DNA of 64,000 bases from Chryseobacterium herbae (GTDB taxonomy: Bacteria > Bacteroidota > Bacteroidia > Flavobacteriales > Weeksellaceae): assembly GCF_025154075.1 (NCBI RefSeq), contig NZ_JAOAMU010000002.1, positions 368,368-432,367 on the forward strand. The letters run 5' to 3'. Position 1 is the stretch's first letter, and each line of letters opens with the position of its first letter. The position numbers and the translations under genes were made by a program. Shown piece by piece: positions 17,670 through 53,639 of the stretch. The notes under the pieces were generated by a model. It had not been told where the DNA came from. It ran no database searches and saw nothing but the letters and a program-made list of their open reading frames with translations.

Positions 17670-17675
17670 CTAATT

Positions 17676-26556: not shown

Positions 26557-27339
26557 ATGAATACCTTCTTACTGTCTTTGATTGACAAAAGAATTGAAGG
26601 GGCGATGATCAGGTTTTCACAACTTCCGATAAGATCATCTTTACTAAGTTCTACCCACCATGAACTCCTGGAGAAACTAACCAAAAAGGTTATAGATACT
26701 TATATTAGTTTTTTTCAGAGTGTCGATATGGCTCCTAAAGAATATTATTATGGTGAGAGTACCCTAATAAAAATATTTAATCTTTCGGATCTTAATCGGA
26801 AAAAGCTTAAAAATTTTGAAAAAAAACTCATTAACCTTGTTACAGACCCTATAAGCCCCTCAGTGATCCCTGTTTATTTGCCTCTGCATAAATCTGCGCA
26901 GATATTTCTGTACACAGGAATAGGTATTTTGGACAGCCCCTGTCACTGCGTTATTTTTTTTCTTTATGAACTTTCCATTCCGAGATCTTTAATAGGCTAT
27001 AGTCTTAGTACCCTACACTACCTGGAAACAGCCCTCGATCAAGTTAGTAATGATGAATTCTCGAAATCTAAGCCCTTAAGAAAACTGGCTGCCGATTATG
27101 GTAAGAATTACAATCAGTTTCAAAAGGATTGTAAGGATTACTTTGGTGATACCTTCCATCAGTTTCATAATAAAATGAAAATGCTTAATGTACTGGACGA
27201 TATCCTGTTTACCGGATATAGTTTTAAGGAGATTGCTTATCGAAATGATTTTTCAAACTATAACAGTATGTATTTTCTATTCAGCAGAAAATATGGATTT
27301 CCGATACATTCCATTCCCCGATTATTGACTGAAATCTAG
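26557..27339 (+). CDS. AraC-family transcriptional regulator
   Basis: A 260-residue protein. Its last 90 residues form the AraC-type double helix-turn-helix: LRKLAADYGKNYNQFQKDCK, then GYSFKEIAYRNDFSNYNSMY and FSRKYGFPIH. The N-terminal part (about 1-165) is not a recognisable cupin and may sense an unknown signal; it has the hydrophobic stretch IFLYTGIGILDSPCHCVIFF. The gene sits directly upstream of a 21-bp tandem repeat array and the MauE/DUF6520 pair, which are the likely targets. Confidence 0.8.
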   Translation: MNTFLLSLIDKRIEGAMIRFSQLPIRSSLLSSTHHELLEKLTKKVIDTYISFFQSVDMAPKEYYYGESTLIKIFNLSDLNRKKLKNFEKKLINLVTDPISPSVIPVYLPLHKSAQIFLYTGIGILDSPCHCVIFFLYELSIPRSLIGYSLSTLHYLETALDQVSNDEFSKSKPLRKLAADYGKNYNQFQKDCKDYFGDTFHQFHNKMKMLNVLDDILFTGYSFKEIAYRNDFSNYNSMYFLFSRKYGFPIHSIPRLLTEI

Positions 27340-27366
27340 AAAAATATTCTCACTTGAAATCTTCTG

Positions 27367-27440
27367 TACTATTTTCAATGTGCCGGGTACTTTCTTCAAT
27401 GTTTTTTATACTTTTTCGCATGTTTTAAGTACTATTTGAT
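27367..27440 (+). promoter_or_regulatory. Phased 21-bp direct-repeat array, probable operator
   Basis: TACT recurs at 27367, 27388, 27409 and 27430, exactly 21 bases apart, each time followed by a T-rich box and then in three units by CAATGT or GCATGT. The units start TACTATTTTCAATGT, TACTTTCTTCAATGT, TACTTTTTCGCATGT and TACTATTTGAT. Two helical turns per unit means all copies face the same side of the DNA, as expected for an operator or activator site. The array ends about 58 bases before the MauE-like gene. An array with a similar box lies at 52631-52769. Confidence 0.7.
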
Positions 27441-27497
27441 ATTTAATTCTATTTTTTAATAGGGAGCTTTACTTCTGTAAACCAAACAATTAACCCT

Positions 27498-29000
27498 ATG
27501 AAAAAGAGCTTCTATATATTCCCTGATATTATTGCGTACTTTTTCGTATTGCTATTCTGCTATGCGGCCTCAAGTAAAGTGTTTGATTTTGAGAATTTTC
27601 AGGTACAGCTGGCGCAGTCTCCACTACTAAGTGCCTATGCAGGGGCAATTTCTTATGCTGTTATTATAGTAGAACTGATCATTGTATTATTACTCTGTAT
27701 TAAAAGCACCAGACTAACAGGTCTTTATCTTTCACTAGGTATCATGATCAGCTTTACGGTATATATTTATCTCATTTTAAATTACAGCGATTTTGTGCCG
27801 TGTTCCTGCGGTGGAATTTTGGAGAAGCTAGGCTGGACTGAGCATATGATCTTTAATATAGTCTGTGTTTTGATGGCTTTTAGCGCTGTTTGTATTGTAG
27901 AACGACAAGAAAAAAGGAAGCTAAGCAGAACAATGGTCAGTACTGGAGGAGTAATCCTTGCTTCTGCGGCAATGGTTATCGTTTTATTTTTATCCTCGGA
28001 GAATATCATTAAAAAGGAAAATAACTTTACCCGGCGCTTTTTGCTTCACCCGGTCATTGAGGATAAAGTTTTAGATCTGGGAATCAATTCCTATTACTTT
28101 GCGGGAGTGGATGATGGTAAGATCTATCTTGGAAATAGTACGGCACCATTACTACTGACATCGGTTGATACATCATTGACGGCAAATTCTTCAATGAAAA
28201 TAAGCCTTGACAAATCAGATCATAAATTCAGAAACCTACAGGTTCAGGTCTGCGACTCTTTCTACTTTCTGTATGACGGGAGTGTTCCAGTAATCTACAG
28301 AGGTGTTTTGGGAGATTCACTGACGCGAACCATCAGCTACCGGGATGCTTATTTTACTCAATTGGTGGTTCTGGATTCTTCAAGATTTGCCATCAGAACG
28401 CAAAGCCGCCAAAATCGGCAATACACGCTGGCTAGTCTAAACCTTAGCACAAATCCAAAACTGAAACTGCGCCCTTCTATTCTTGAGAAGCAAATAGATG
28501 GGGTGTTCGATTCGGATGGAACGTTGATTGGAAGTAGGGGAAAGGGATCTCTCATTTATACCTATTCGTACCGAAATCAATTTGTAGTGATGGATCAAGA
28601 TCTGAGTGTACTCAGGAGGTTAAACACGATCGATACGACAAGCCGGGCTAAGATAGAAACCCGGCAGCTTTCAGACGGTAATCATAAAATGACAGCTCCG
28701 CCACTTGTAGTCAACAAGATAATGACAGGTAATGGCCAGTTACTGTTCATTCAGTCTAATTTAATGGGAAAACATGAATCATCCAAGGCGTGGAAGAATG
28801 CGGCTGTGGTTGATATATACCATACTGACAGGCAGGAATATGTAGGAAGCTTTTACATACAGAATCGAAAAGAAAATACAATATCACAGATGCTGGCAAC
28901 TGACAAATACCTATATGTGTTGATCGGAAACGAGCTCATCAGGTACCAATTCAGAACAGCGTTACAAGATCCTAAACCAGGGGAAGCCGAAAACCTTTAA
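27498..29000 (+). CDS. MauE/DoxX-like redox membrane protein with a large C-terminal domain
   Basis: A 500-residue protein. The first 145 residues hold four transmembrane helices with the MauE signature SDFVPCSCGGILEKLGW (Cys at about 102 and 104), typical of MauE/DoxX-like proteins linked to periplasmic thiol redox. One more helix lies at about 150-166. The rest (about 175-500) is soluble and rich in beta strands (IYLGNSTAPLLLTSVD, GVFDSDGTLIGS, KYLYVLIGNELIRY), probably a periplasmic propeller-like domain. The DUF6520 peptide gene starts 36 bases downstream, in what looks like an operon. A role in disulfide handling of that peptide is inference. Confidence 0.75.
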   Translation: MKKSFYIFPDIIAYFFVLLFCYAASSKVFDFENFQVQLAQSPLLSAYAGAISYAVIIVELIIVLLLCIKSTRLTGLYLSLGIMISFTVYIYLILNYSDFVPCSCGGILEKLGWTEHMIFNIVCVLMAFSAVCIVERQEKRKLSRTMVSTGGVILASAAMVIVLFLSSENIIKKENNFTRRFLLHPVIEDKVLDLGINSYYFAGVDDGKIYLGNSTAPLLLTSVDTSLTANSSMKISLDKSDHKFRNLQVQVCDSFYFLYDGSVPVIYRGVLGDSLTRTISYRDAYFTQLVVLDSSRFAIRTQSRQNRQYTLASLNLSTNPKLKLRPSILEKQIDGVFDSDGTLIGSRGKGSLIYTYSYRNQFVVMDQDLSVLRRLNTIDTTSRAKIETRQLSDGNHKMTAPPLVVNKIMTGNGQLLFIQSNLMGKHESSKAWKNAAVVDIYHTDRQEYVGSFYIQNRKENTISQMLATDKYLYVLIGNELIRYQFRTALQDPKPGEAENL

Positions 29001-29035
29001 AAGAGTAGGCACAAATCAATCCTAAATTTTTTATT

Positions 29036-29293
29036 ATGAAAAAGTTTATTTTTCCTGTTGCCGTTATTCTAATGGGTGCAGGAGCTGCTTTTGCGACAAA
29101 AGTAACCACAAGTAACCGTGCTTTTGTAACTGCGTACCGTATTGATGCAGTATCAGGACAATGTATCGATGCCAAACAAGAGTGTAGTACACAAACTGGG
29201 GAAACCTGTTTCTGGTCAGCGGACAATGTTACTCCGTTACATGAACTATCTGGAACCATGTGTGGAGAAGAGTTGTTTAAACCTATCAATTAA
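29036..29293 (+). CDS. DUF6520 secreted Cys-rich peptide, locus A
   Basis: An 85-residue precursor with a signal peptide (MKKFIFPVAVILMGAGAAFA) and a short mature part of about 65 residues with four Cys (GQCIDAKQEC, TCFW, MCGEELF). The pattern fits DUF6520, small exported proteins frequent in Bacteroidota and of unknown function. Four Cys next to a MauE-like gene suggests that the mature peptide is disulfide-bonded. It ends at a strong terminator shared with the convergent peptidase gene. Confidence 0.75.
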   Translation: MKKFIFPVAVILMGAGAAFATKVTTSNRAFVTAYRIDAVSGQCIDAKQECSTQTGETCFWSADNVTPLHELSGTMCGEELFKPIN

Positions 29294-29297
29294 CACC

Positions 29298-29335
29298 AAG
29301 CTAGGCTGTCCGAATAGGACAGCCTAGCTTTTATT
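29298..29335. terminator. Bidirectional terminator between DUF6520 and the S9 peptidase
   Basis: A perfect 14-bp inverted repeat (AAGCTAGGCTGTCC / GGACAGCCTAGCTT) with loop GAATA, followed by TTATT on the plus strand and positioned at the 3' ends of two convergent genes. The 3' arm ends one base before the peptidase stop codon. Confidence 0.85.
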
Positions 29336-31817
29336 GATTATTAATCCAAGGGACGTTTTTTTTGTCTTTTAAAAAATAATCCCACCATTCCAGTACTTTT
29401 TGGTGCAGATCTTTTTTCTCTTCTGAACCCGCTCCAAGAGCATGTCTACCATTAGGGTAGAATAGGGCTACAACTTTTTTATTATGCCTTCGGAGCCCCA
29501 TGAAAAACTCCATCGTCTGATCCCAGGGAACGTTTTCATCCTGTTGTCCGGTCCAAAGCAGGATAGGGGCATTCACCTTTTCCATATTAAAGATGGGATT
29601 GTTACTGAAATACAATTCCTTATTTTCAAGAAAGGATATGTTCATCCTATACTGCCCGGTCTCGTATTGCCAGAAATAAGGGCCGGGAAAATGGTAGTTA
29701 TAAGAAAAATAAGAACGAATAATGTCGCTGAGCCCTGCTCCGGATATATAAGCTGCAAATCGATCGGAATGGGTGGCAATGAAATTTGTTTCATACCCTC
29801 CAAAGGAATGGCCAATCAGTCCCACTTTATGCATATCAATGCCAGGATTAGTACTGACTGCATCCAAGGCTTTATGTACGCAATCCAATGCTGATAATCC
29901 CGGGCCTAAGTCTCCCACAACGGTATCGGGTAAAAGGACAAAATACCCCTTTTCCAATAGAGTTCTTATATCCAGCTCATCTCTATTGTGATAGCCGGGT
30001 GTAATATATTGGTTTGACATCCTATTTTGAATCTGATAGATATGCACGATCATAGGATACTTTTTTGCTGGGTTAAAGTTCACCGGATAATATAAGAGTC
30101 CTTTCAGGGCTAGGCCATCCTTAGTGGTGTAGTGGATGATATCCTGCTTTAGAGTCTTACTACTTTTATCAGTCTCACTTGCAGCAGGGATTAATATTCT
30201 CTTTTGCTCGCCATCCCCAATGAAGGATAGGGTTGGAGGTTTATTGAAATTCTCTTCCAATACGTAAAAATGGGTTAATTCATCATCATAGGTGAAATTT
30301 CTAACATAATTTTCTGTTGATGATACAGTTTCTTTTTGCTTGCCCCGTTTCCAGGTAAGATAGGAGGTGGTGGTACTCGGTTGATCCAAGGCCTGTATTA
30401 GAAGAGGCCGGTTGAGATCAATGGTCTGGAGTGAAAAATTCCATTTTTCGGATATCTTTAAGATTTTTCGATTGATAATCTTAGTTTGTTTTCCTGTTGC
30501 TATTTTAAGCGCGGTCAATTTTTTTGTTTTGATTTCGTAGCGCCAGAGATCGTTGGAACTTTCAAAGAAAATGTAGCGGCCATCCATTGTAAACACAGGG
30601 TTTTGAAGGTTGGGCTGGGAAATGACACTTTTTGTCATGGGTTCTAATTCAAAAAGTGACCATCTTTTTCCATCCTCACTTCCTAAGAGGTATTTTCCGT
30701 TATAGGAACAGAAAATTTCAGATGAACCGTAAGTGATACCCTTGAGATCGTCCAATCTTCGGTAGCTGTTTGACTGTACATCATAGATTTGTACATCCTT
30801 TAACTGGGGTTCATAGTTCAGATAATCATGACCTTTTGTGGGATGAAAAGCTAAGAAATAGCGATCACTATTGATGGCTGAGATCACCGGATATGTGTCG
30901 GTGGGAAGCTCCTGTATCTTGTTGTTATTGGACTGCCATAGCCAGTACCTATTTTTTGTGACCCCTGTTTTTTTTGTTTTTAGATTTTCATCATTTCCAT
31001 ACCAGATGTCTACCAGCTTATTTTGAGGTTTTTCGGGGCTGTGGAGGCTAATAAATAAAGCCTTTCCTTCTTGAATTTCCGTAAACCTGTAATAATCATT
31101 TTTTTCGGTAGAGACGGTAGGAAGTGAATCTGTTTTTCCGCTCAGGGTATTGATCAATACGATCAGACTTTTATTTGACTCCTTTTCAATCTCCTGTACT
31201 ATAATATATTTTCCTGAAAGGGACAATTCTACTTTTTTTATCGTATTGAGGGTTGTTCTGAGCACTTTTGATTCATTTCCCAAAAGATCAAGGATTTCAT
31301 AATGATCGGCATTCTGCTTGAATACGTATAGTTTTTTCTTATTATCTGTGACAGGAAATTCCTGTACTCCTGTGATATACTGTAATCTTTCGTTGTCAGT
31401 GTTGTAGACGCTCAGATTAGTCTCTTTGTCCAATATGGCGTATTTACCCGTTACAGTAAGTGGGTAGGCTATTTTTACCTGATTATAATTTTTCTTTTCT
31501 CCGGTTTTTAGATTCTGGAACTTTGCTTTTCCTTGTCCAAAAACAAGGAGTCCATCACCTTTTATAAAGGTTGCTTCTCCGCCCAGGGCTATTGTGCCTA
31601 TGGGAACATCGGGTTTTTGGGTATCTACTACGAGAAGCGTATCTTGGGTAAGATCATAGCGCTTTCTTACCGCTACCCACCTTCCGTCGTCGGAAGATAT
31701 GGGATTGACCAATCGTGAGAATCCTGAGATCCAGCTTTGCAGGGTATCTTTTGTACTTTGCGCGGAATACCAACTACTGCTAAATAGCAGTAACAATAAC
31801 CAAATTATTCTTTTCAT
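29331..31817 (-). CDS. S9 family (prolyl oligopeptidase-like) secreted peptidase
   Basis: About 828 residues. The start at 31817 (MKRIIWLLLLLFSSSWYSAQ) is chosen because it begins a proper signal peptide; an upstream in-frame ATG at 31886 would lie inside the susD gene. The N-terminal two thirds are propeller-like; the C-terminal alpha/beta-hydrolase domain has the nucleophile GHSFGGYE (Ser at about 671), an Asp in WTGQQDENVPW and a His in YPNGRHALG. It cuts small peptides, probably in the periplasm. The gene overlaps nothing and lies two bases after susD in the SusCD operon, so it may process what SusCD imports or the nearby DUF6520 peptide. Confidence 0.88.
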   Translation of the reverse strand: MKRIIWLLLLLFSSSWYSAQSTKDTLQSWISGFSRLVNPISSDDGRWVAVRKRYDLTQDTLLVVDTQKPDVPIGTIALGGEATFIKGDGLLVFGQGKAKFQNLKTGEKKNYNQVKIAYPLTVTGKYAILDKETNLSVYNTDNERLQYITGVQEFPVTDNKKKLYVFKQNADHYEILDLLGNESKVLRTTLNTIKKVELSLSGKYIIVQEIEKESNKSLIVLINTLSGKTDSLPTVSTEKNDYYRFTEIQEGKALFISLHSPEKPQNKLVDIWYGNDENLKTKKTGVTKNRYWLWQSNNNKIQELPTDTYPVISAINSDRYFLAFHPTKGHDYLNYEPQLKDVQIYDVQSNSYRRLDDLKGITYGSSEIFCSYNGKYLLGSEDGKRWSLFELEPMTKSVISQPNLQNPVFTMDGRYIFFESSNDLWRYEIKTKKLTALKIATGKQTKIINRKILKISEKWNFSLQTIDLNRPLLIQALDQPSTTTSYLTWKRGKQKETVSSTENYVRNFTYDDELTHFYVLEENFNKPPTLSFIGDGEQKRILIPAASETDKSSKTLKQDIIHYTTKDGLALKGLLYYPVNFNPAKKYPMIVHIYQIQNRMSNQYITPGYHNRDELDIRTLLEKGYFVLLPDTVVGDLGPGLSALDCVHKALDAVSTNPGIDMHKVGLIGHSFGGYETNFIATHSDRFAAYISGAGLSDIIRSYFSYNYHFPGPYFWQYETGQYRMNISFLENKELYFSNNPIFNMEKVNAPILLWTGQQDENVPWDQTMEFFMGLRRHNKKVVALFYPNGRHALGAGSEEKKDLHQKVLEWWDYFLKDKKNVPWINNQ

Positions 31818-31819
31818 GA

Positions 31820-33193
31820 TTAGTATCCGGTATTTTGTGGGTTTAAATTTGAGTTGAGTAAGAGTTCCTGCTGTGGCACCGGCCATAGATCATGATAAGA
31901 TTTCCAGTTCGGCTTTATCGTAATCAGGCTATTCAGGCGGTTTGTACGTTTCAGGTCCAGAAAACGGTGTCCCATTTCGGTAAAGAATTCCTTTCTGTTT
32001 TCCAGTAGTATTTCATCCAGTAATGCAGATTGTGTGGTTGGACCAGTAAAAGCACCGAGACCTGCTCTTTGTCTTGTGGCATTGATATAAGGTAGTGCCT
32101 GCGGTAATTTATTTTGCTGTACCATCGTTTCAGCAAGCAGGAGGTAGACTTCTTCCAAACGAAATACAATAGAATATTCAGTGGTATTTTGGGTTCGGTT
32201 TTTATATTTATCAGCGCGATACCATGTGTTTCCATTAAAAGTTACCGTGGCCATCCAGTTCTGTTTTCTCAGGTCTCCATTTGAAAAAGAGTCAATCAGT
32301 TCTTGGGACAATGCATAATTGGTTGGAGCTGCACCGGTAAAATAATAGTTCATAGCTTCCTTGGTTGGATCTCCAGCGTTTTTGGGTTTCAACTGCCATA
32401 AAATATGGGTTCCTGATTTTTGAAATACCTTGGTGGTATTATTTTCAAACTGATAAAGGGGGCTTTGTACAATATTTTTTAAAAGGAACTCAGCATCATT
32501 CCATCGGTGTTGCAGCATGTATATTTTAGCCAGCATCAGCTGCGCTGTCTTTTTATTGGGATAGATCCGCTCTGTATTGCGGTATTCATCGGTTAACAAA
32601 TTGGTTACCTGACTAAGACCGTTTTCCAGTTGGGTCAATACCTCGGAAGAGGATGTTTTGGATAAGGATTGGTTAAGCTTATAATCGGTGGTAATAGGAT
32701 AGGGGATATCCCCGAAGGATTGCTGCAGGTAGAAAAATACAATTGATCTCATAAGAAGGGCTTCACCCGTGATCCGCCTTTTTTCAGTTGCAGGTAATGC
32801 CGATGAATTTTCTACACCTTCTAGTATAGCATTGGCTATATAAATGTTTTGGTAAGCACCAGACCAATATGAATAAATAGTAGGATTGGCTCCAATCTGC
32901 TGATTCCGATAAATATCAAGCACGCCATTAACAGAAGTGGTAGCATAGCAATCCAGATCATCGGTATACATTCCAAAAAGTTTACCAGCTTCGTCTCCTG
33001 CAATTGGCGAATTATCTCGCATCCCGGCATACAACCCGGCAAGGGCGGCATTAGCCGTCTGCACGTCTTCAAATACTTGGCCCGTCGTGATTTGGTTATT
33101 GGGAATTTCAACTTCTACCAGCTTTTCACATGAGATGGTAACTTTTAGCAAGAAAAGTATGATAATTATAAATACAATTTTAAATGTTTTCAT
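31820..33193 (-). CDS. SusD/RagB-family outer-membrane lipoprotein, locus A
   Basis: A 457-residue protein with a lipoprotein signal (Cys at about 22, in VTISC) followed by the SusD pattern. Visible family features are GEALLMRSIVFFYLQQSFGD, KKTAQLMLAKIYMLQHRWNDA, FRLEEVYLLLAETMVQQNKL, and the C-terminal LWPVPQQELLLNSNLNPQNTGY-type ending. SusD proteins cap the SusC porter and bind substrate at the cell surface. It lies 11 bases after susC and two bases before the peptidase gene. The substrate is unknown; no glycoside hydrolase is present, so a peptide substrate is more likely. Confidence 0.9.
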   Translation of the reverse strand: MKTFKIVFIIIILFLLKVTISCEKLVEVEIPNNQITTGQVFEDVQTANAALAGLYAGMRDNSPIAGDEAGKLFGMYTDDLDCYATTSVNGVLDIYRNQQIGANPTIYSYWSGAYQNIYIANAILEGVENSSALPATEKRRITGEALLMRSIVFFYLQQSFGDIPYPITTDYKLNQSLSKTSSSEVLTQLENGLSQVTNLLTDEYRNTERIYPNKKTAQLMLAKIYMLQHRWNDAEFLLKNIVQSPLYQFENNTTKVFQKSGTHILWQLKPKNAGDPTKEAMNYYFTGAAPTNYALSQELIDSFSNGDLRKQNWMATVTFNGNTWYRADKYKNRTQNTTEYSIVFRLEEVYLLLAETMVQQNKLPQALPYINATRQRAGLGAFTGPTTQSALLDEILLENRKEFFTEMGHRFLDLKRTNRLNSLITIKPNWKSYHDLWPVPQQELLLNSNLNPQNTGY

Positions 33194-33204
33194 GAGTAAT
33201 AATT

Positions 33205-36300: not shown

Positions 36301-36353
36301 ATTTTTGTAGTGTTAAATTAGTAACGCGACGAATAATTGTTATTAGTTTTCCT

Positions 36354-36377
36354 GACCGACAGTTCCCGCTGTCGGTC
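36354..36377 (-). terminator. Hairpin between fecR and susC, locus A
   Basis: A perfect 9-bp stem (GACCGACAG / CTGTCGGTC) with a 6-base loop, between the anti-sigma and porter genes. On the minus strand no T run follows, so it may act as a partial attenuator or RNA-processing site. A GGCAA/TTGCC hairpin lies nearby at 36418-36431. Locus B has a hairpin at the same place (45856). Confidence 0.5.
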
Positions 36378-36436
36378 TTTTATTGAGTGGAGATCACGTA
36401 TCAGAGATCAGGTGCATGGCAAGGAATTGCCATATT

Positions 36437-37291: not shown

Positions 37292-37382
37292 AATACAAGG
37301 GTCTATATTATGTAATAGGACGAAAAGGAAAAAAAGGACCAGTATTTTAATAAACTTTAACGAATTAAAGCTAATTTTAACT

Positions 37383-38747: not shown

Positions 38748-38764
38748 TGCTATAATTTATAGCA
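38748..38764. promoter_or_regulatory. Palindromic operator 1 for the S24 repressor
   Basis: TGCTATAATTTATAGCA is a perfect 8-bp inverted repeat around one central base, lying directly before the repressor ATG and downstream of its -7 box. Binding would block its own transcription. Confidence 0.75.
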
Positions 38765-38765
38765 T

Positions 38766-38773: not shown

Positions 38774-38781
38774 AAACAAAA

Positions 38782-38798: not shown

Positions 38799-38823
38799 AT
38801 TTTGTGAAATAAAATAGGATCAG

Positions 38824-44467: not shown

Positions 44468-44494
44468 AAATTATTTATCAATCCGATAGTAGGA

Positions 44495-45760: not shown

Positions 45761-45855
45761 AAGTCCAATGTATCACCTATAAACCACAGAGCCTATGAAG
45801 TAATCGTTTTTTCTTAATTTTTAGATTTAGTTAATCAAACCCACACTATAAAAAA

Positions 45856-45882
45856 CCGGAGCATTGTTCGAGGATGCTCCGG
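45856..45882 (+). terminator. Hairpin between fecR and susC, locus B
   Basis: A perfect 9-bp stem (CCGGAGCAT / ATGCTCCGG) with a 9-base loop and no following T run. It sits in the same place as the hairpin at 36354 in locus A, so partial termination or RNA processing between regulators and porter is possible. Confidence 0.5.
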
Positions 45883-45987
45883 GGATTGTGGGCTTTGTGA
45901 ACGATCAGTATGAACCAATTTATCAACTTATTGCAGGAGGACCTTCAAAACTAAATTTCCATTGCAATACCAAACCTATCCAAACTT

Positions 45988-48900
45988 ATGAATTTTCTAT
46001 CAAAACTAGGCTATCTCTGGCGGGGTAGTCCTTCTTTCTATACCAGAAACAGATGGCTTAACAGCTTTCTGAAAAAAATACCCCTCAGTTTCCATTTAGC
46101 GGTATTGATGCTCTTTACCTTCTTCGTTGCTGCTATTGGTGTAAAAGCTCAAAATATAAGCATCGATGCCAAAGCTGTCCTTATGCATCGGGTGTTCAAA
46201 CAGATCGAAAAGCAAACCGACTATCTATTTTGGTATAAGGGAAAGCTGCAAGATAAAAATGTGCCCATTACTGTGAGTTTTAGCAATATGCCAGTAAAAG
46301 CCGCCTTAGATAAGCTTTTTGAGCAGCTACCTTTTACCTATGAAATTGTAGATAAAACCATTGTGGTCACAGAAAAACCAGCTGTTAAAAACAACTCTAA
46401 ATACAGAGAGAAACAGAGAACGAGGCCCATGTCCGGAACTGTTAGCGACGAAAATGGCAGACCGCTCTCTGGCGCTACGGTTGCAGTAAAAGGAACTAAC
46501 CAAACTACAGCCACCAATAGTGAGGGAAATTATATCCTCCAAAATGTCGCTGATGATGCGGTTCTGAGCGTTACTTATATCGGTTATATAACGCAGGAAG
46601 TCAGCATAGAAAATGCTGAAAAGATTTTCCTAAGTAAATCAGAATCTAAGCTGGATGAAGTCCAGATCATCGCCTATGGTACCACCACCAAACGCTTGAA
46701 TACAGGATCTGTGGGAAGCATTTCCAGTGCTGATATAGCCAAACAGCCTGTCAGTAACCCACTAGGGGCGCTTTCAGGCCGTATACCCGGTCTTGTGGTG
46801 AGCCAGTCTACGGGTGTGCCTGGCTCCTCATTCAATATTCAAATTCGTGGCAGAAACTCTATGGCACAAGGTTCTGAGCCTTTGATTCTTATTGATGGAA
46901 TTCCTTTTTCATCGGGTAATCAGGGTATTTCTTCTTTGCCTTCAGCGTTAACAAATGGTGTAACAGGAACCTCACTAAGTCCTTTTAACAGCATTAACCC
47001 CAGTGATATTGAAAGCATTGAGATTTTAAAGGACGCTGATGCCACGGCGATTTACGGATCGCGTGGTGCCAATGGGGTGGTGCTGATTACTACGCGAAAA
47101 GGGAAGGCAGGTAAAATACAGATAACAGCCAATATCAATCAGGGATTTACAGAGGTCGGAAAAACAATGAAATTGATGAACACACCACAGTACCTTGAAA
47201 TGCGCAGGGAGGCTTTTGTGAATTCTAATATATCACCAACGATCGCTGATGCTCCCGATCTGATGGCATGGGACCAAAACCGTTATACGGATTACAAAAA
47301 AGAACTGATTGGCGGAAACGGAAAACTGACCAATGCGCAGCTTTCAGTCTCTGGTGGTTCCTCAGAAATACAATATCTGGTAAGTGGATCATTTTACCGC
47401 GAAACCTCGGTTTTCCCTAGTGCAATGCCTAATACCAGAGGAAGTGTAAATATGAATCTTAACCACAGCTCGAAAGACGATCTTTTTACCATGAACCTTT
47501 CAGGGAGCTTTACGGCAGGGGAGAATAAAACTGCAGGAACTGATTTAACCTACTATACTTTTTTAAGTCCCAATACGCCTGATTTTTTTACCCCTGATCG
47601 GAAATTGAAATGGATAGAGAATGGGGCATCCTATGAAAATCCTTACCGTTACCTTTTTGAAACATACAAAGCCACAACAACAAATCTGGTCAGTAGCTTA
47701 AACACTTCCTATAAAATCATTCCCGGTTTGACCGTGAAAATGGCTATGGGATATAATAGGATGGGGGGAAAAGAGATAAAGCTCATGCCCATGAGTTCTT
47801 TATCTCCTGACCAGACTCAGCTCAGCTCTTCACAGTTCGCTTGGAATGAGTACAGCAGCTGGAACATTGAGCCGCAATTGCAATACGTAGGAACTTTGGG
47901 ACTGGGAAAGCTTGACGTTTTAACGGGTGCTACTTTTCATCAAAAGGATAATTCAGGAAATTATATTTCCGTCAGTGGATTTACCACTGATGCTCTGATG
48001 GAGTCTATTGGAGCTGCAAGCACGATCAATGCTGCTTCTAATTCTAAAAGTCAGTATCGGTATCAGGCTGTATTTGCACGAATCAACTATAATATAGGTA
48101 ATAAATATATTATCAACCTGACCGCGAGACGTGACGGGTCGAGCCGCTTTGGGGCTGGGAAGCAATTTGCGAATTTCGGAGCAGTAGGAGGGGCATGGAT
48201 TTTCACTGAGGAAAAGTGGCTAAAGGATCAATTTTCCTCCCTAAGCTTTGGTAAACTGAGGGGAAGCTATGGTATTACGGGGAATGATCAGATTGGAGAT
48301 TATCAGTTTCTGGACAGCTGGCAGTCCGGTTCACAGACCTACCAGGGAATAGGAACTCTCCGTCCTTCAGCGCTGGCAAACCCCAATTATAGCTGGGAAG
48401 AGAATAAAAAACTGGAAGCTGCTGTAGATCTTGGTTTTTTAAATGACAGATTCCTTTTTTCTGCGAATTATTACCGCAATAGAAGTTCCAATCAACTGGT
48501 CGCTTACCGACTGCCTTATCTGACAGGATTTGCATCGATCATCAGGAATTTTCCTGCGGTGGTTCAGAATGAAGGCTGGGAGCTTTCCTTCAGTGCAGAT
48601 GTGATAAGCAGAAGCTCTTTGAGCTGGACACTTGCTGTCAATGCAAGCCTTCCTAAAAATAAATTACTGGAATTTCCCGGAATTGAAACCTCCAGCTATG
48701 CTTCACTTTATAAAGTGGGTAGATCTCTTAATAGCCTTTACAATTATCATTATGAAGGTATAGACCGCGAAACAGGACTGTACCGATTGACAGATGTGGA
48801 TGGAAACGGAAGCTACAGTGCTGGTGATTTAATGATTAATGGATCACTTGATGCGAAAATTTATGGTGGGGTCAATAATACATTTCGGTATAAGGGAATC

Positions 48901-49332
48901 GAATTGAGTGTGTTTTTTGACTATCGGAAACAGAGCGGAAAAAACTTCCTGTATTCTCTTTACAACCTTGCCCGTATTCCAGGTATGATGCTGAACCAGC
49001 CGATTGTTCTTGCGGATCGATGGCAGAATTCGGGGAGCGATGCTCAATATGAAAAGTATAGCGCATTAGCAGGAGCAGCCGTAGCTAATATCGGATATTC
49101 TGACCGGGTATACAGCGATGCTTCATTTGTGCGATTACGGAATGTCTCTTTGAGCTATTCCCTTCCAAAAGATCTGATATCCAAACTTTCTTTTGGATCT
49201 GCAAGGGTGTATTTTCAGGGGCAGAATCTTTTCACTTGGAGTAAGGTTAAAGGTTTTGATCCGGAAACGCAGAATCTTTATTCACTACCCCCATTAAAAG
49301 TTTATACAATTGGTTTACAGCTTAATCTATAA
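45988..49332 (+). CDS. SusC/RagA TonB-dependent porter with STN domain, locus B
   Basis: A 1114-residue outer-membrane porter. A long N-terminal signal region (cleavage near GVKAQ, about residue 55) is followed by an STN domain (about 57-130: AVLMHRVFKQIEKQTDYLFW), then a carboxypeptidase-D-like repeat (GTVSDENGRPLSGATVAVKG), a plug (IQIRGRNSMAQGSEPLILID, DADATAIYGSRGANGVVLIT) and a barrel. The plug and barrel align well with the locus A porter (for example MKLMNTPQYLEMRREAF against MKMLSTEQYLHMRRQAF). It takes up an unknown substrate with SusD. Confidence 0.92.
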   Translation: MNFLSKLGYLWRGSPSFYTRNRWLNSFLKKIPLSFHLAVLMLFTFFVAAIGVKAQNISIDAKAVLMHRVFKQIEKQTDYLFWYKGKLQDKNVPITVSFSNMPVKAALDKLFEQLPFTYEIVDKTIVVTEKPAVKNNSKYREKQRTRPMSGTVSDENGRPLSGATVAVKGTNQTTATNSEGNYILQNVADDAVLSVTYIGYITQEVSIENAEKIFLSKSESKLDEVQIIAYGTTTKRLNTGSVGSISSADIAKQPVSNPLGALSGRIPGLVVSQSTGVPGSSFNIQIRGRNSMAQGSEPLILIDGIPFSSGNQGISSLPSALTNGVTGTSLSPFNSINPSDIESIEILKDADATAIYGSRGANGVVLITTRKGKAGKIQITANINQGFTEVGKTMKLMNTPQYLEMRREAFVNSNISPTIADAPDLMAWDQNRYTDYKKELIGGNGKLTNAQLSVSGGSSEIQYLVSGSFYRETSVFPSAMPNTRGSVNMNLNHSSKDDLFTMNLSGSFTAGENKTAGTDLTYYTFLSPNTPDFFTPDRKLKWIENGASYENPYRYLFETYKATTTNLVSSLNTSYKIIPGLTVKMAMGYNRMGGKEIKLMPMSSLSPDQTQLSSSQFAWNEYSSWNIEPQLQYVGTLGLGKLDVLTGATFHQKDNSGNYISVSGFTTDALMESIGAASTINAASNSKSQYRYQAVFARINYNIGNKYIINLTARRDGSSRFGAGKQFANFGAVGGAWIFTEEKWLKDQFSSLSFGKLRGSYGITGNDQIGDYQFLDSWQSGSQTYQGIGTLRPSALANPNYSWEENKKLEAAVDLGFLNDRFLFSANYYRNRSSNQLVAYRLPYLTGFASIIRNFPAVVQNEGWELSFSADVISRSSLSWTLAVNASLPKNKLLEFPGIETSSYASLYKVGRSLNSLYNYHYEGIDRETGLYRLTDVDGNGSYSAGDLMINGSLDAKIYGGVNNTFRYKGIELSVFFDYRKQSGKNFLYSLYNLARIPGMMLNQPIVLADRWQNSGSDAQYEKYSALAGAAVANIGYSDRVYSDASFVRLRNVSLSYSLPKDLISKLSFGSARVYFQGQNLFTWSKVKGFDPETQNLYSLPPLKVYTIGLQLNL

Positions 49333-49337
49333 TAAAG

Positions 49338-50708
49338 ATGAGATCATTATATTTTTTAGTCCTGTTTGCATTTTTTTGCTCGTGTAAAAAATTTGTAGAG
49401 ATTGATGCGCCGATTACTAAGATCAGTGCATTTACGGTATTCCAGGATGATGCTACGGCGACATCTGCCATATTGGGGATGTACGCCCGTTTGGTGGTCA
49501 GCAGTCCTGCCTTTTCGAATGGCGCTGCTACCATCTATCTGAGCACTGCTTCCGATGAGCTTGTGTACAGTGGAACTAATGCTGATATGTCTGGATTTTA
49601 TACCAATACCCTAAATAGTGGAAATTCTATTGTATACCGAGATTTCTGGCGTTATCCTTATGAAACCATTTATCAGGCCAATGCCTGTATTGAAGGCTTA
49701 GAGAAATCCACAGGAGTTACCCCAAGTCTAAAGATGCAGCTTTTAGGAGAAGCCTATTTTATACGGGCATTTTGTTATTACTATCTTGTGAATCTCTTTG
49801 GCGATGTACCGCTTATAAAGACGACTGACTTTGAGATCAATGCAAAAGCTTTGAGAAGTAGAAGCTTAGAGATTACTAATTCAATGATTGACGATTTGCA
49901 GCAGGCAAGAGATAGATTATCCAAATCTTATCCTTCTGCCGGAAGATTGCGTGTCAATTTTTATACAGCCACCGTACTGCTTAACCGAATCTACCTCCAA
50001 CAACAAAACTGGGAACTTGTTGAGAAGACGGCAAACGAAATTTTAAGTTCCAATCAATATTCCCTTGAAACGGATCTTTCGAAAACATTTCTGATGACAA
50101 GCACTGAGGCTTTTTGGGAGTTGGCGTTTCCCGATGCAAGTACTTTCAATACCATTGAGGGGAGTCGCTTTATTCCACTGGCAACGGCAAATGTGGTGCC
50201 TGCTTTTAACCTCACCAGTAGCCTTTTCAATTCTTTTGAATCGGGAGACCTAAGAAAGACCCATTGGATCGGATCAAAGTCAGTAAGTGGGACCACTTAT
50301 TATTATCCGTATAAGTACAAAGTACGGGGAGCTGCTGTAAAGACGGAGCATTGTATTGTTTTCAGACTTCCGGAGATCTATTTTAATAGGGCAGAAGCGC
50401 GCGTTTATTTAAATAATTTATCGGGGGCATTAAGTGATTTGAATACCATAAGGCAGCGTGCTAATCCGTCGTGGACTTCTTTCAGCAGTTCAGAACCTGT
50501 CGTGATTCAAGCTGCTATTCAGAAAGAAAGACGCATAGAATATTTTGCAGAATGGGGACATCGCTGGTTTGATCTTAAGAGAACAGGCCACCTTAATGAT
50601 ATTCTGATGCCTTTGAAAACAACATGGAAAGCAACAGCCAATGTATTTCCGATTCCTTCTGCTGAAATTCTAACCAATCAAAACTTAACTCAAAATCCTG
50701 GATACTAA
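49338..50708 (+). CDS. SusD/RagB-family outer-membrane lipoprotein, locus B
   Basis: A 456-residue protein with a short lipoprotein signal (MRSLYFLVLFAFFCSC; lipidated Cys at 14 or 16). SusD features include LLGEAYFIRAFCYYYLVNLF, TATVLLNRIYLQQQNWELVE, FRLPEIYFNRAEARVYLNNL and the FPIPSAEILTNQNLTQNPGY ending, matching the locus A paralogue. It follows susC by five bases and precedes the TlpA-like gene by one base, a tight operon. Confidence 0.92.
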   Translation: MRSLYFLVLFAFFCSCKKFVEIDAPITKISAFTVFQDDATATSAILGMYARLVVSSPAFSNGAATIYLSTASDELVYSGTNADMSGFYTNTLNSGNSIVYRDFWRYPYETIYQANACIEGLEKSTGVTPSLKMQLLGEAYFIRAFCYYYLVNLFGDVPLIKTTDFEINAKALRSRSLEITNSMIDDLQQARDRLSKSYPSAGRLRVNFYTATVLLNRIYLQQQNWELVEKTANEILSSNQYSLETDLSKTFLMTSTEAFWELAFPDASTFNTIEGSRFIPLATANVVPAFNLTSSLFNSFESGDLRKTHWIGSKSVSGTTYYYPYKYKVRGAAVKTEHCIVFRLPEIYFNRAEARVYLNNLSGALSDLNTIRQRANPSWTSFSSSEPVVIQAAIQKERRIEYFAEWGHRWFDLKRTGHLNDILMPLKTTWKATANVFPIPSAEILTNQNLTQNPGY

Positions 50709-50709
50709 A

Positions 50710-52008
50710 ATGAAAAATAGAATCAAAACATTGAGTATACTATGCCTAATGGCATGCTTACTTCTCATAAATCCTGTTTATTCTCAGGAAATTAAACCGC
50801 TGACCGTTGGTGACACCATGCCCGATGTGATATTAAAATCGGTCCTAAATTATAGTAAAAGAAGTGCGCAGCTTTCTGATTTTGCAGGTAAAGCCATGAT
50901 ACTTGATTTCTGGTTTATCAGATGTGGTTCCTGCAGAGCAGCGATGCCGCACCTGGACAGTTTACAGAAAGCTTTTAAAAATGATCTTCAGCTGCTTCTC
51001 GTCACCTGGGAAGATAAAAAGAAGGTAGAAGAATTTTTCACCACGGATTTGGATGCCAAACACCTGAAATTTGTTAATGTTGTTAATGACAGTTTACTGC
51101 GAAAAATTTTTCCAGCAAGAGGGTTTCCACATCAGGTGTGGATTGATAAAAATAATAGAATAACTGCTATTACTGATGGAACCAATACTTCTGTTGAAAA
51201 TATTCAAAAACTAATTAGTGCAAAGAAGATCGACCTTCCTGTTAAAGTGGACGAGATGGATTCCAAACTTCATCAGGGAACAGATCCGTTAATGACCTAT
51301 CGGTACGGCACCACCAAAGATAAAATACTCAAATACTCCTATCTCAGTAAAAGGAGATTAGAATTTCGGGGTGGGAGCAGCTTGGAGGTAGATACTTTGA
51401 ATCAAATAGCTCGTGCCAGTTTTACCAATATAGATTTTTTACAGCTTTACGACAATGCCTATACTTCAAGTTTAGGATCTGGTGACCTGCACAGGCCCAG
51501 TAGACTAATAAGAAAAGACACCAGCTCTGTTAAAACTGAGGCAGATTATAAAACCTTTACCAATGTTTTCTGCTATGATTTGATGTACAAAGATACCACA
51601 ACACGGGGCTTTGGAAAATATATGATCAGGGATCTCGATGAATACTTTGGTCTCAAAAGTCGTCTGGAAACAAAAAAAATAAAATGCCTGGTCATCAAAG
51701 AAAAAGGAGTAGGGAAAGGATATCGCCAACCCTTGAATGGAAATGACAAAAGATTTTTGGATTGCAAAATGATTGTTGGTAAAAAAAATAAGGCAAACAA
51801 AGCTTGGCAAGGTTTCGTATTGGAAGAACTTAACCGCAACAGCTACATGCCTATCATAATTGATCTGGATATTAATCAGCCTATATCCTTTGAATTTACC
51901 TGGACACCAAATGATATAAAAGCGATGTCTAAGGAATTGGAGAAATTCGGACTTGAAATGGTTGTTGAGAAAAGACCGAGAAAAGTCATCATTCTTGAAA
52001 ATAACTAG
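50710..52008 (+). CDS. TlpA-like periplasmic thioredoxin protein with a long C-terminal extension
   Basis: A 432-residue exported protein with a signal peptide ending near VYSQ. A thioredoxin/TlpA domain (about 30-175) follows, with MILDFWFIRCGSCRAAMPHL (CGSC, Cys72 and Cys75) and FPHQVWIDKNNRITAITDGT carrying the cis-Pro region. The remaining 250 residues resemble no domain I know but recur, in my experience, in TlpA proteins of SusCD operons. It is the last gene of the locus B operon, in the position held by the S9 peptidase in locus A. Likely a thiol-disulfide oxidoreductase; the nearby Cys-containing DUF6520 peptide is a possible substrate. Confidence 0.85.
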   Translation: MKNRIKTLSILCLMACLLLINPVYSQEIKPLTVGDTMPDVILKSVLNYSKRSAQLSDFAGKAMILDFWFIRCGSCRAAMPHLDSLQKAFKNDLQLLLVTWEDKKKVEEFFTTDLDAKHLKFVNVVNDSLLRKIFPARGFPHQVWIDKNNRITAITDGTNTSVENIQKLISAKKIDLPVKVDEMDSKLHQGTDPLMTYRYGTTKDKILKYSYLSKRRLEFRGGSSLEVDTLNQIARASFTNIDFLQLYDNAYTSSLGSGDLHRPSRLIRKDTSSVKTEADYKTFTNVFCYDLMYKDTTTRGFGKYMIRDLDEYFGLKSRLETKKIKCLVIKEKGVGKGYRQPLNGNDKRFLDCKMIVGKKNKANKAWQGFVLEELNRNSYMPIIIDLDINQPISFEFTWTPNDIKAMSKELEKFGLEMVVEKRPRKVIILENN

Positions 52009-52011
52009 ATA

Positions 52012-52036
52012 AAGGGCTGGTCATTGACCAGCCCTT
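52012..52036. terminator. Bidirectional terminator between the TlpA and DUF6520 genes
   Basis: A perfect 11-bp inverted repeat (AAGGGCTGGTC / GACCAGCCCTT) with loop ATT, at the 3' ends of convergent genes, followed by CGTTATTATT on the plus strand and AT-rich sequence on the minus strand. It mirrors the terminator at 29298. Confidence 0.8.
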
Positions 52037-52041
52037 CGTTA

Positions 52042-52332
52042 TTATTGTTTTCTAGCCTGATCGACCTGAGCTCCTACCGGAACCTCGTTACCTGGAGTAC
52101 CGGAAATTGCAGAATAAGCTCGTGCGCAGGGTTGCAGACCTTCAGGTCCACAATGGTCATCCTGTATATTTGCTTTTGTATCCTGACCGAGATAATTATT
52201 ACTTCCTACTTCGAACCAATAATACACAGTGGCTTCTGTTTTTGTTTCTGTTTTAGCAGGGCTGAATGCAAATGCTGCTAGGGTACCGCCAGCAATAAGG
52301 ATTGCTGCAACGGCTGTTTTTAATTTGTTCAT
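52042..52332 (-). CDS. DUF6520 secreted Cys-containing peptide, locus B
   Basis: A 96-residue precursor starting MNKLKTAVAAILIAGGTLAA; an in-frame ATG at 52374 would spoil the signal peptide. The mature part (from about FSPAKTETKT) is about 70 residues with two Cys (DDHCGPEGLQPCARAYS) and a Tyr/Trp-rich VYYWFEVG. It fits the DUF6520 type and mirrors the four-Cys peptide at 29036. It is convergent with the TlpA gene and lies downstream of the LytTR regulator and its repeat array. Confidence 0.7.
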   Translation of the reverse strand: MNKLKTAVAAILIAGGTLAAFAFSPAKTETKTEATVYYWFEVGSNNYLGQDTKANIQDDHCGPEGLQPCARAYSAISGTPGNEVPVGAQVDQARKQ

Positions 52333-52415
52333 GATTTTTATTATTAGTGGTTTAATATTGGGCAATAACCTCATGGGTTAATGCTTAAGTCATTGCCGTG
52401 AATAGAGGCAAAAGG

Positions 52416-52439
52416 CATAGGCAAGGGTAACTGCCTATG
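52416..52439 (-). other. Hairpin between the LytTR array and the DUF6520 gene
   Basis: A perfect 8-bp inverted repeat (CATAGGCA / TGCCTATG) with an 8-base loop; on the minus strand it is followed by CCTTTTGCC. It could be a terminator or leader structure ahead of the peptide gene. The 443-base gap 52333-52775 holds this hairpin, a possible 47-residue frame and the repeat array. Confidence 0.4.
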
Positions 52440-52483
52440 TGTTACTTTTACGATCTGAAAAGGGTTAAATTAATGTACCGTAA

Positions 52484-52627
52484 TTACTCCCTGAAGGATT
52501 CATTGCTTCGGCATGATTGGCTATCTGCCGTTACCTCTTTAAGTTTTTTTACTACTGTGGTGATACTACTGTTTAGTTGCCGAGTAACTTTATGGTAAAT
52601 GTATTGAGGTTCAGGTGTATAAAACAA
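52484..52627 (-). CDS. Possible 47-residue small protein (TTG start)
   Basis: A frame beginning TTG gives YTPEPQYIYHKVTRQLNSSI, then TTVVKKLKEVTADSQSC and a stop. The middle looks like an amphipathic helix and composition is protein-like, but there is no ATG and no family is recognised. It lies between the repeat array and the DUF6520 gene on the same strand, so it could be a small operon member or just chance. Confidence 0.25.
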   Translation of the reverse strand: MFYTPEPQYIYHKVTRQLNSSITTVVKKLKEVTADSQSCRSNESFRE

Positions 52628-52630
52628 TAG

Positions 52631-52769
52631 GAGTTGCGAAATGGGGTGCGAAAAAACATCGGAAAAGCCATGTAATTCCCTTTAATAGGAGATATTGTTT
52701 TTTCGCGCCGGGTGCGTAATGTACATCTCAAGGGTGCGAAACATACAAAAAAGGATGTGAAATAACATG
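52631..52769 (-). promoter_or_regulatory. Phased direct-repeat array, probable LytTR-type operator
   Basis: On the plus strand TGCG or TGTG cores recur at 52713, 52735 and 52756, 22 and 21 bases apart, within GGGTGCGTAAT, GGGTGCGAAAC and GGATGTGAAAT. Two more copies (TTGCGAAAT, GGTGCGAAAA) lie at 52635 and 52647, 12 apart. Read on the minus strand, the box is TTTCGCACC. Direct repeats with about 21-bp period are what LytTR regulators bind, and the LytTR gene ends six bases away. The box resembles TTTTCGCATG in the locus A array. Confidence 0.65.
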
Positions 52770-52775
52770 AAATTT

Positions 52776-53639
52776 CTATGGATTGCTACCCAATTTCTTC
52801 TTGATTTTGGAAATATGCTCTTTTGTAACGACAAATTGATTCATACCCTGCTGTTCCAGAAGATTTTTAAATTTATCTTTAAATACAAGTTCGAGTGTGT
52901 GCCTCTTCTCACCTTCCGTGAATTCTCTGACAGCTGTAAGGTTGAGAATTACCGAGCGGTTGATGGGTAAGAAATCAGTGTCTTTGAACTGCTCTATCAG
53001 AGATCCCAGCGTTTCATCCATCGGATATTCTTCTCCATAAAATGTGATGAGACGAACATACTTTCCCTGACGGCAGAAATAAAAGATATCCTCAGCAGCA
53101 TTGAACCTTAAAAAGCGTCCGTTGTGGTCAACAGTGAGTAGGGTTGGTGCTGACTTTTTATCATTGAGATGCTGAATATCTTGATCATGTTGTAGTACAC
53201 TTACTTTGGGTTCTGTTAATAATAGATAATGAATAAGATAATAAAGATTCATCAGAGTGATGAAGAAAAAAATAACGGGAAAATCTATAAGTAAAAAGCC
53301 ATTGTCTATAATATTCTGCCCGATTGCATGAAAATAGATTGAAATAAGCAGCAGATCTGCTGAGGCCGGTAGTATAATACCCAGTAAAAACTGTAATAGG
53401 GAACGTTTGACAGGCTCGGATCTCCAGGAAGATCTTTTATCCAGCCATGTTGTAACTGCATGAACAGCGTACACCAGCAATAGTGATATACTAAAGCTGA
53501 CGCTTAGTGCAACGTAAAAGCCTGGAGAGGTGAAAGCCTCTACCAAATTAATAGGCCGCCCGTGAAAGAGGATGTAAAACGAGGCTACAAATGCACAGAT
53601 AATGCGTAGCTTTTTGTTATTGTAAGCTATGGTTTCCAT
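52776..53639 (-). CDS. LytTR-family membrane-bound transcriptional regulator
   Basis: A 287-residue protein with four predicted transmembrane helices in the first 145 residues and a C-terminal LytTR DNA-binding domain (about 180-285). Visible elements are VDHNGRFLRFNAAEDIFYFC, YVRLITFYGEEYPMDETLGS and DFLPINRSVILNLTAVREFT. There is no response-regulator receiver domain, so it may sense a membrane or periplasmic signal directly. It takes the regulator position of locus B, as the AraC protein does in locus A. Confidence 0.88.
   Translation of the reverse strand: METIAYNNKKLRIICAFVASFYILFHGRPINLVEAFTSPGFYVALSVSFSISLLLVYAVHAVTTWLDKRSSWRSEPVKRSLLQFLLGIILPASADLLLISIYFHAIGQNIIDNGFLLIDFPVIFFFITLMNLYYLIHYLLLTEPKVSVLQHDQDIQHLNDKKSAPTLLTVDHNGRFLRFNAAEDIFYFCRQGKYVRLITFYGEEYPMDETLGSLIEQFKDTDFLPINRSVILNLTAVREFTEGEKRHTLELVFKDKFKNLLEQQGMNQFVVTKEHISKIKKKLGSNP

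Follow-up and report, generated by a model that had tools for sequence, protein, structure and literature searches.

Isopeptidase-containing lasso peptide clusters have a near-constant architecture made up of a regulator, a precursor, an isopeptidase, a TonB transporter, and a sigma/anti-sigma pair (excerpted text of PMC9266682). Homologs of MauE and MauD occur in candidate Streptomyces clusters for ribosomally synthesized and posttranslationally modified peptides (RiPPs), where the predicted precursors have at least eight cysteines (excerpted text of PMC7794033). RagAB has been implicated in protein uptake (abstract of PMC11817032), and two putative TonB-dependent receptor genes are listed as cargo of a Riemerella element (excerpted text of PMC6491836). 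Here we describe a gene module that recalls each of these systems and that occurs twice, as loci A (26557-37913) and B (43871-53639), in a 64,000-nucleotide stretch of the Chryseobacterium herbae genome, hereafter the window (GCF_025154075.1, contig NZ_JAOAMU010000002.1, positions 368,368 to 432,367; 39% GC). In its full form, an operon for a MauE-domain membrane protein and a small peptide of the DUF6520 family (PF20130) faces a convergent operon for SusD, SusC, and either an S9-family hydrolase or a TlpA-like thiol-disulfide protein. The module is real, widespread, and mobile.

With the lasso clusters of the astexin type, as far as the excerpt describes them, the module shares a regulator, a ribosomal peptide, a hydrolase of the prolyl-oligopeptidase kind, a TonB-dependent transporter, and a sigma/anti-sigma pair in one locus; in locus A, a TonB receptor with sigma and anti-sigma genes (SusC, FecR, and sigma) stands beside a hydrolase. 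Unlike them, it has a peptide with a signal sequence and four cysteines, a SusCD pair rather than a lone receptor, MauE, and carriage on conjugative elements. The best NCBIfam match of its S9 protein is the AtxE2 lasso isopeptidase family NF033523, at 68.5 bits against a cut-off of 400, and lasso leader peptidase or cyclase domains were found in none of the 20 window proteins scanned (26.5-54.1 kb). Judged by its sequences, the module appears to resemble the isopeptidase lasso clusters in its working but is no member of them. The MauE/MauD systems, known from methylamine dehydrogenase maturation and, in excerpt, from the Streptomyces RiPP candidates, likewise place MauE beside a small cysteine-containing product, and the TlpA-like partner in B extends the parallel. 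In contrast to them, module A joins its MauE to a propeller within one protein, genes for a receptor, a hydrolase, and signaling are added, and the host belongs to the Bacteroidota.

Two further systems invite comparison. With SusCD polysaccharide utilization loci and RagAB, the module has in common a true SusC and SusD and, in one class, control by sigma and FecR; it departs from the utilization loci in pairing the receptor genes with a convergent peptide/MauE operon and in sitting on conjugative elements, and the 20 scanned proteins included no carbohydrate-active enzyme. CTnDOT/ERL-type integrative conjugative elements resemble its setting, with TraG, TraJ, TraK, TraM, TraN, and TraQ in the window and RteC near most modules, but we did not find a peptide-receptor cargo module described for them in the open-access literature searched. 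That literature also yielded no paper naming DUF6520 or NVEALA, no description of the module among the papers listed for MauE/SusCD, conjugative-element cargo, or related combinations, nothing joining SusC/SusD, integrative or conjugative elements, and pheromone in Bacteroidetes, and nothing for MauE/MauD with disulfide and the methylamine dehydrogenase small subunit.

The first-pass annotation of the window had suggested one functional system in the two loci, an idea staked on DUF6520 genes lying near SusCD operons more often than expected and on the two loci being each other's relatives; both counts came out in its favor. DUF6520 is found in 45 of 78 genomes of the genus, in 32 of 395 genomes sampled across the phylum, from 15 of 170 genera, and in none of 14 control genomes. 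We examined regions of up to 20 kb around 60 matches in Chryseobacterium (leaving out the six lowest-scoring) and 36 in the phylum (leaving out two weak partial ones), together with 40 random regions drawn from the contigs of the genus matches, so that the control represents genus genomes only. Genes were called with a simple longest-open-reading-frame (ORF) script, which may miss small genes. A MauE homolog was present in 58 of 60 genus, 33 of 36 phylum, and 0 of 40 random regions, and the corresponding counts were 58, 33, and 3 for SusD and 56, 22, and 3 for S9. SusC was present in 58 of 60 and 32 of 36 regions vs. 4 of 40, so DUF6520 lies near SusCD far more often than by chance, and these region counts exclude a chance neighborhood of the module genes.

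Approached from the MauE side, a single scan confirmed at least 584 relatives of the window MauE protein. The best-scoring 80, hence those nearest to the query, lie with S9 in 77 cases, SusD in 75, SusC in 74, and DUF6520 in 73 (the sets of 60, 36, and 80 regions overlap partly). We collapsed 157 modules by MauE sequence to 135 unique ones. Wherever all five genes were called (111 of 111 modules), their order was identical, with MauE and peptide followed by S9, SusD, and SusC facing them, and the median gap was 32 bp between the MauE and peptide genes and 31 bp between the stop codons of peptide and S9. The remaining 24 of the 135 were dropped for at least one uncalled gene. In nine of these, only the peptide gene had escaped calling because a start codon farther upstream made its ORF too long, and it was recovered in every case; the other 15 were without one or more SusCD-side genes, for example at a contig or stretch end or through a split ORF, an insertion, or a loss. 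Named hosts include Chryseobacterium, Pedobacter, Sphingobacterium, Chitinophaga, Empedobacter, Flavobacterium, Myroides, Sunxiuqinia, and Draconibacterium. The window MauE shares 69% identity with a Pedobacter homolog and 66% with one from Sphingobacteriaceae, more than with most of the Chryseobacterium proteins listed (49-65%, with two at 77 and 83%), a pattern indicative of horizontal spread.

The module rides on conjugative elements as cargo. The window itself looks like part of a CTnDOT-type conjugative element: TraG, TraJ, TraK, TraM, and TraN, each above its NCBIfam cut-off, lie at 0.5-8 kb and TraQ at 8.6-9.1 kb, and locus B is followed by a PRTRC ThiF gene above cut-off and a PRTRC B-like gene just below it (128.3 bits; cut-off 131.45). 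For a linkage survey of 78 genomes, we set aside weak or fragmentary matches, namely 5 of the 59 for TraQ, the 15 lowest for RteC, and 3 fragments of MauE. The survey contains 67 long MauE-propeller copies (one, in G038, itself split), 62 of them with RteC or TraQ within 70 kb and 45 with RteC within 20 kb (at 3.2-6.4 kb). RteC occurs in 49 of 53 genomes with the module vs. 6 of 25 without (p = 1.5e-9), or in 50 of 53 and 7 of 25 when two genomes with only dropped RteC rows are added; TraQ occurs in 33 of 53 vs. 5 of 25 (p = 6e-4), both p values being uncorrected for kinship. Seen from the TraQ loci, a module lies within 70 kb of 34 of 54 and of none of the other 20. In one module class, the regulator directly follows traQ on the same strand (e.g., L208, L220, L226, and L228). 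The MauE-propeller protein was absent from 72,556 plasmid records at E 1e-20. As a separate observation, a module within 70 kb is lacking at 14 of the 15 TraQ loci that score above 186 bits but present at 33 of the remaining 39, so the cargo seems to follow one element family.

The modules fall into two types. Type A combines a MauE-propeller fusion, a four-cysteine peptide, and S9; type B combines MauE alone (∼148 aa), a mostly two-cysteine peptide, and a TlpA-like protein. Among 13 type-B loci that we laid out, a TlpA-like gene is present in 12 and S9 in none, the thirteenth (L148) ending at a contig edge. Two-module arrangements recur: for 16 of 30 short-MauE (type-B) copies, the same contig carries a type-A module no more than 60 kb away. 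Genome G058 repeats the window plan of PRTRC-like genes (by eye), type-B module, XRE-S24/PolY end of the polymerase cassette, and type-A module, as read from two stretches (L071 and L044) ∼6 kb apart. In G058, the type-B module includes a MauE gene of its own and encodes a different peptide. A transposase-like gene scoring below Pfam cut-offs (L071:10251-11549) is inserted there and separates the peptide gene from where its convergent partner would stand. A transposase-like gene recognized by eye takes the corresponding position at L080:8182-9726, where the region read retains no SusCD. The DUF6520 gene at L070:9827-10093 stands alone, with neither MauE nor SusCD, in a cluster of RHS-like genes.

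Peptide and S9 are the fastest-diverging parts of the module: where MauE is 45-53% and SusC 56-61% identical, the mature peptide is 27-33% and S9 29-35% identical. Because linked genes share a tree, we set partial Mantel correlations aside and relied on a discordant-neighbor test, using loci for which MauE points to one nearest relative and S9, SusC, or SusD to another. The peptide was nearer to the S9 neighbor than to the MauE neighbor by 41:13 (9 ties, n = 63), and likewise nearer to the SusC neighbor (37:14; 3 ties, n = 54) and the SusD neighbor (35:18; n = 57). With a 1% margin, the counts against MauE were 34:7, 25:1, and 25:4 for S9, SusC, and SusD, and one vote per cluster (47 clusters) gave 22:3, 19:2, and 20:6. 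The direction was kept in 40 of 40 resamplings for each of S9, SusD, and SusC at 250 columns vs. all 494 columns of MauE. S9 also beat the propeller of MauE as a tracker of the peptide (40:14). By these comparisons, the identity of the peptide goes mainly with the convergent S9/SusCD operon and perhaps also with the MauE propeller.

We then consider the proteins themselves. In locus A, the MauE membrane domain (Pfam MauE, 99.4 bits; cut-off 27) is fused to a predicted beta-propeller (27498-29000, + strand). Its AlphaFold2 model, with a mean predicted local distance difference test score (pLDDT) of 86.9, has long helices up to residue 174 and strands at 186-485, and its top PDB matches are propellers by title. 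The motif PCSCGG and residues W, H, and N are invariant. Residues 186-485 match structure 3s9j, a DUF4221 protein of Bacteroides vulgatus, a match that may link the module to gut Bacteroides propeller loci. In a genome outside the order (L145:8692-10714), the peptide gene lies between a MauE gene and a separate gene for a propeller-like protein, and FecR, SusC, SusD, and TlpA are present; this arrangement may show the origin of the type-A fusion.

The locus A peptide (29036-29293, + strand; DUF6520 at 34.3 bits, cut-off 25.4) has a signal-peptide-like N terminus and ∼65 mature residues with four cysteines. A profile search without a cysteine filter returned 132 unique type-A sequences, 130 with four cysteines, 2 with two, and none with an odd number (counted beyond residue 20), and the four cysteines are invariant in 66 aligned sequences. 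The two exceptions (L049 and L050, close relatives) keep only C2 and C3, and the joint loss of C1 and C4 fits C1-C4 and C2-C3 pairing. The AlphaFold2 model of the peptide has four strands (mean pLDDT 71.5; predicted template modeling score 0.50), with residues 31-80 at 78-85 and two of five models below 50. The fold matched no PDB structure (best E 0.67; no Z ≥ 2), and the peptide profile retrieved nothing credible among PDB sequences. Beside short MauE genes, 9 of 11 peptides passing a filter of at least two cysteines have exactly two; one of the two four-cysteine cases, L082, is a split type-A module, and a further peptide that the filter had missed (L119) has two.

Locus B encodes a peptide with two cysteines on the − strand (52042-52374; an inner ATG at 52332 gives 96 aa). 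DUF6520 had been assigned to both loci, which stands for A on its score and for B by way of a relative: the B peptide has no Pfam match at E 0.1 and thus lies below the DUF6520 cut-off of 25.4 bits, but it matches a homolog in L077 (phmmer 1e-11) that is DUF6520 at 26.4 bits, above the cut-off.

The predicted exported S9-family hydrolase of locus A (29331-31886, − strand; Peptidase_S9, 91.4 bits) has a catalytic triad of Ser694, Asp783, and His815 that is kept in 111, 111, and 110 of 112 sequences (the remainder being gaps), together with a variable N-terminal part; its PDB relatives include dipeptidyl and acylpeptide hydrolases. Its counterpart in locus B, the TlpA-like protein (50710-52008, + strand; AhpC-TSA 34.8 and Redoxin 34.2 bits), has thioredoxin-fold proteins including TlpA and ResA as PDB sequence relatives. 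Its CxxC motif reads CGSC, and CxxC is kept in 18 of 22 homologs, a count that spans beyond type-B loci.

The ORFs, strands, and coordinates given for loci A and B were confirmed, as was their mirror-image layout. SusD of A (31820-33193, − strand; SusD-like_3 80.1 and SusD_RagB 67.5 bits) and of B (49338-50708, + strand; SusD_RagB 85.7 bits) are 33% identical. The paralogy claimed for SusC is clear: SusC_A (33205-36300, − strand; TIGR04056 639 bits, cut-off 368; Pfam SusC plug and barrel) and SusC_B (45988-49332, + strand; TIGR04056 741 bits) are 41% identical over 907 columns, and SusC_B is the nearest relative of SusC_A in the whole genome, at 731 bits with the next at 224. The SusC pair was ranked genome-wide, and the SusD pair was compared pairwise. 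The common gene order proposed for the two loci holds in the mirror layout but not throughout, because B is without a MauE gene and the regulators come from different families, AraC in A and LytTR in B. Terminators had been placed in both convergent gaps. A hairpin with a 14-bp stem is terminator-like on both strands in A (29298-29330; z −7.2), and one with an 11-bp stem was called on the + strand only in B (52012-52036; z −6.3 for the folded stretch).

Upstream of MauE in locus A lies an AraC-type regulator (26557-27339, + strand; HTH_18, 36.5 bits), which has an equivalent position across the AraC/FecR class of modules. In all, the 135 modules divide into AraC with FecR (28), TPR-AraC without FecR (67), AraC without FecR (16), and none detected (24, one with FecR). 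Of the repeat arrays described before the peptide operons, that of A is real, a chain of about five copies spaced ∼21 bp between the regulator and MauE (27360-27470, + strand; Tandem Repeats Finder, 27387-27437), and that of B is weaker, with three copies of GGGTGCGNAA before the peptide gene (52640-52745, − strand; spacing 66 and 22 bp). Chains of at least three copies of the A-type motif, which was drawn up by eye from those same promoters, occur in 14 of 29 related FecR-class promoters, the other 15 showing none; each chain, in the window and the 14 promoters, is matched by at most 3 of 100 shuffles. The regulator may bind at the repeat arrays. The LytTR regulator of B (52776-53639, − strand; 44.5 bits) has an N-terminal half that is hydrophobic in translation. 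In the FecR-less TPR-AraC class, a 77-aa lipoprotein-like ORF and a conserved ∼55-aa ORF precede MauE in many modules (L035:7921-8341), and two such small ORFs scanned against Pfam gave no match.

Both loci carry a FecR anti-sigma gene (A, 36437-37291, − strand, 49.8 bits; B, 44495-45760, + strand, FecR 77.7 and FecR_C 51.4 bits) and a gene for a sigma factor of the extracytoplasmic function type (A, 37383-37913, − strand, Sigma70_r4_2 41.8 bits with region 2 below cut-off; B, 43871-44467, + strand, regions 2 and 4 above cut-off). An STN-like SusC N terminus, of a family seeded from the SusC_A N terminus itself, is present in 29 of 29 modules with FecR vs. 0 of 93 without. Pfam STN reaches 31.2 bits on the first 140 residues of SusC_B (cut-off 28.4) and 27.3 on the whole protein, and 27.2 bits, just under the cut-off, in a type-A relative (L038), with weak scores in others. 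The two SusCs from FecR-less modules that we tried have CarboxypepD_reg in place of STN.

Our preferred reading, which might equally well prove right or wrong, is that each module is a self-contained cycle, borne by a conjugative element, in which a peptide is made, exported, recaptured, and destroyed. The local regulator would turn on the MauE-peptide operon, and the DUF6520 peptide would be exported by means of its signal sequence. Its cysteines would be paired with the help of MauE, forming two disulfides in A and one in B, a role for MauE that follows a speculation in the excerpted text of PMC7794033. The folded peptide would get outside the cell by an unspecified route, and the SusCD pair encoded convergently alongside would bind and reimport it, as the matching of peptide and receptor sequences suggests. 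In modules with FecR and sigma, including both window loci, the N-terminal domain of SusC would report binding to FecR, and sigma would raise receptor expression; this direction of signaling is that of FecA-type systems. In the periplasm, the peptide would be opened by the S9 hydrolase in type A and by the TlpA-like reductase in type B. Three findings speak for the handling of a small peptide proposed earlier (maturation, sensing, or uptake): the even number of cysteines, the association of the STN-like domain with FecR, and the tracking of S9 and SusC by the peptide. We infer the identity of the ligand, however, as we do the peptide's role as substrate of S9 or TlpA, the role of MauE, export, and the purpose, which may be to signal from one carrier to another or to ferry a metal or nutrient on a peptide that can be recaptured.

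Several observations weigh against such a cycle. No outer-membrane exporter was recognized in the module, MauE is missing from the window B module and from L077, and some DUF6520 matches stand without a module (L070 in the genus; L131, L140, and L153 in the phylum). The even cysteine count and the STN-FecR link both derive from related sequences and may reflect few events; the STN-like family, as said, starts from SusC_A, which goes undetected by Pfam STN. Rapidly evolving genes record recent history in finer detail than slow ones do, a concern that the column-matched control answers only in part: when 120 columns are used, the effect becomes smaller, and MauE drew level or did better in 0, 4, and 5 of the 40 resamplings against S9, SusD, and SusC. 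Tracking of the peptide by the S9 propeller alone was not supported, as it did no better than the catalytic part (22:23), which argues against a simple lock-and-key picture. Last, the MauE propeller tracks the peptide better than the MauE membrane part does (57:17; 309 vs. 140 columns), and it may also see the peptide.

If the cycle served a pheromone, each element would broadcast its own disulfide-locked peptide, the matched SusCD/FecR/sigma set would read it, and the matched hydrolase or reductase would clear it. Codiversification would then mean recognition of own kind, tuning transfer or excluding rivals, and two modules would be two channels; we hold this version to be improbable. Signaling or policing linked to conjugation, in which the peptide announces the element to neighboring cells and sets transfer or keeps out similar elements, is unlikely in our judgment. 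RteC or TraQ near 62 of 67 long MauE copies, RteC in 49 of 53 vs. 6 of 25 genomes, the regulator right after traQ in one class, and a type-A module near 16 of 30 short-MauE copies all speak for it. Against this, the 20 of 54 TraQ loci without a module within 70 kb mark the module as dispensable for transfer, no tra or excision regulator lies inside it, ordinary cargo would be linked too, and near-identical peptides share one genome (L031 and L032, both in G003). An antibacterial peptide that harms competitors through their SusCD and is recaptured and destroyed by its carrier would be small, fast-diverging, probably disulfide-bonded, secreted, and encoded on mobile elements, as here, with S9 or TlpA able to confer immunity. 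The 20 scanned window proteins, however, include no dedicated exporter or immunity domain, and the lasso peptides of the analogous clusters, astexin-1 excepted, are described without antimicrobial activity in the excerpted text of PMC9266682; we consider this role very improbable.

SusCD systems are known importers, and the module could be nutrient-uptake cargo in which SusCD imports environmental oligopeptides or metal complexes for processing by S9 or TlpA, with DUF6520 a periplasmic helper of the receptor (a folding factor, plug, or metallochaperone). The suggested role of RagAB in protein uptake, the dipeptidyl and acylpeptide hydrolases among the S9 relatives, and the unrecognized outer-membrane exporter would all suit this account, which we think somewhat unlikely. 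Nothing requires a helper to diversify at the pace of S9 or to follow S9/SusCD over its operon partner (although a SusCD-touching subunit could), and the peptide gene belongs to the MauE operon rather than the SusCD operon. Finally, loci A and B might be unrelated cargo arranged alike by coincidence, as the differing regulators and third enzyme and the missing Pfam match of the B peptide could suggest. MauE in 58 of 60 vs. 0 of 40 regions, an order fixed in 111 of 111 modules, and the standing of SusC_A and SusC_B as closest paralogs refute this idea and leave it virtually no probability.

Between the two loci lies a cassette of XRE-S24, Y-family polymerase, and DnaE-type genes (window 37983-43042). 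As a part of the module, it was rejected: PolY occurs in 3 of 60, 2 of 36, and 1 of 80 module regions vs. 3 of 40 random regions. This mutagenesis cassette neighbors the modules and is no component of them. Genes of this kind (also at L080:2179-3432) adjoin a few modules (L044, L048, L127, L135, and L242) and random regions too. Between TraQ and locus A (window 9401-26372), RHS-like large proteins (by eye) are followed by a run of small ORFs. This stretch resembles polymorphic-toxin/immunity cargo, and similar large proteins lie near modules in L044, L048, and L077.

DUF6520, a domain without an assigned function, thereby gains a testable gene context in a widespread mobile module, and its many natural peptide/SusCD/protease triplets are on offer for specificity studies. 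If the peptide is the ligand, the module would be a SusCD system that reclaims what its own cell has made, and cells carrying the element would gain a private channel for communication or scavenging.

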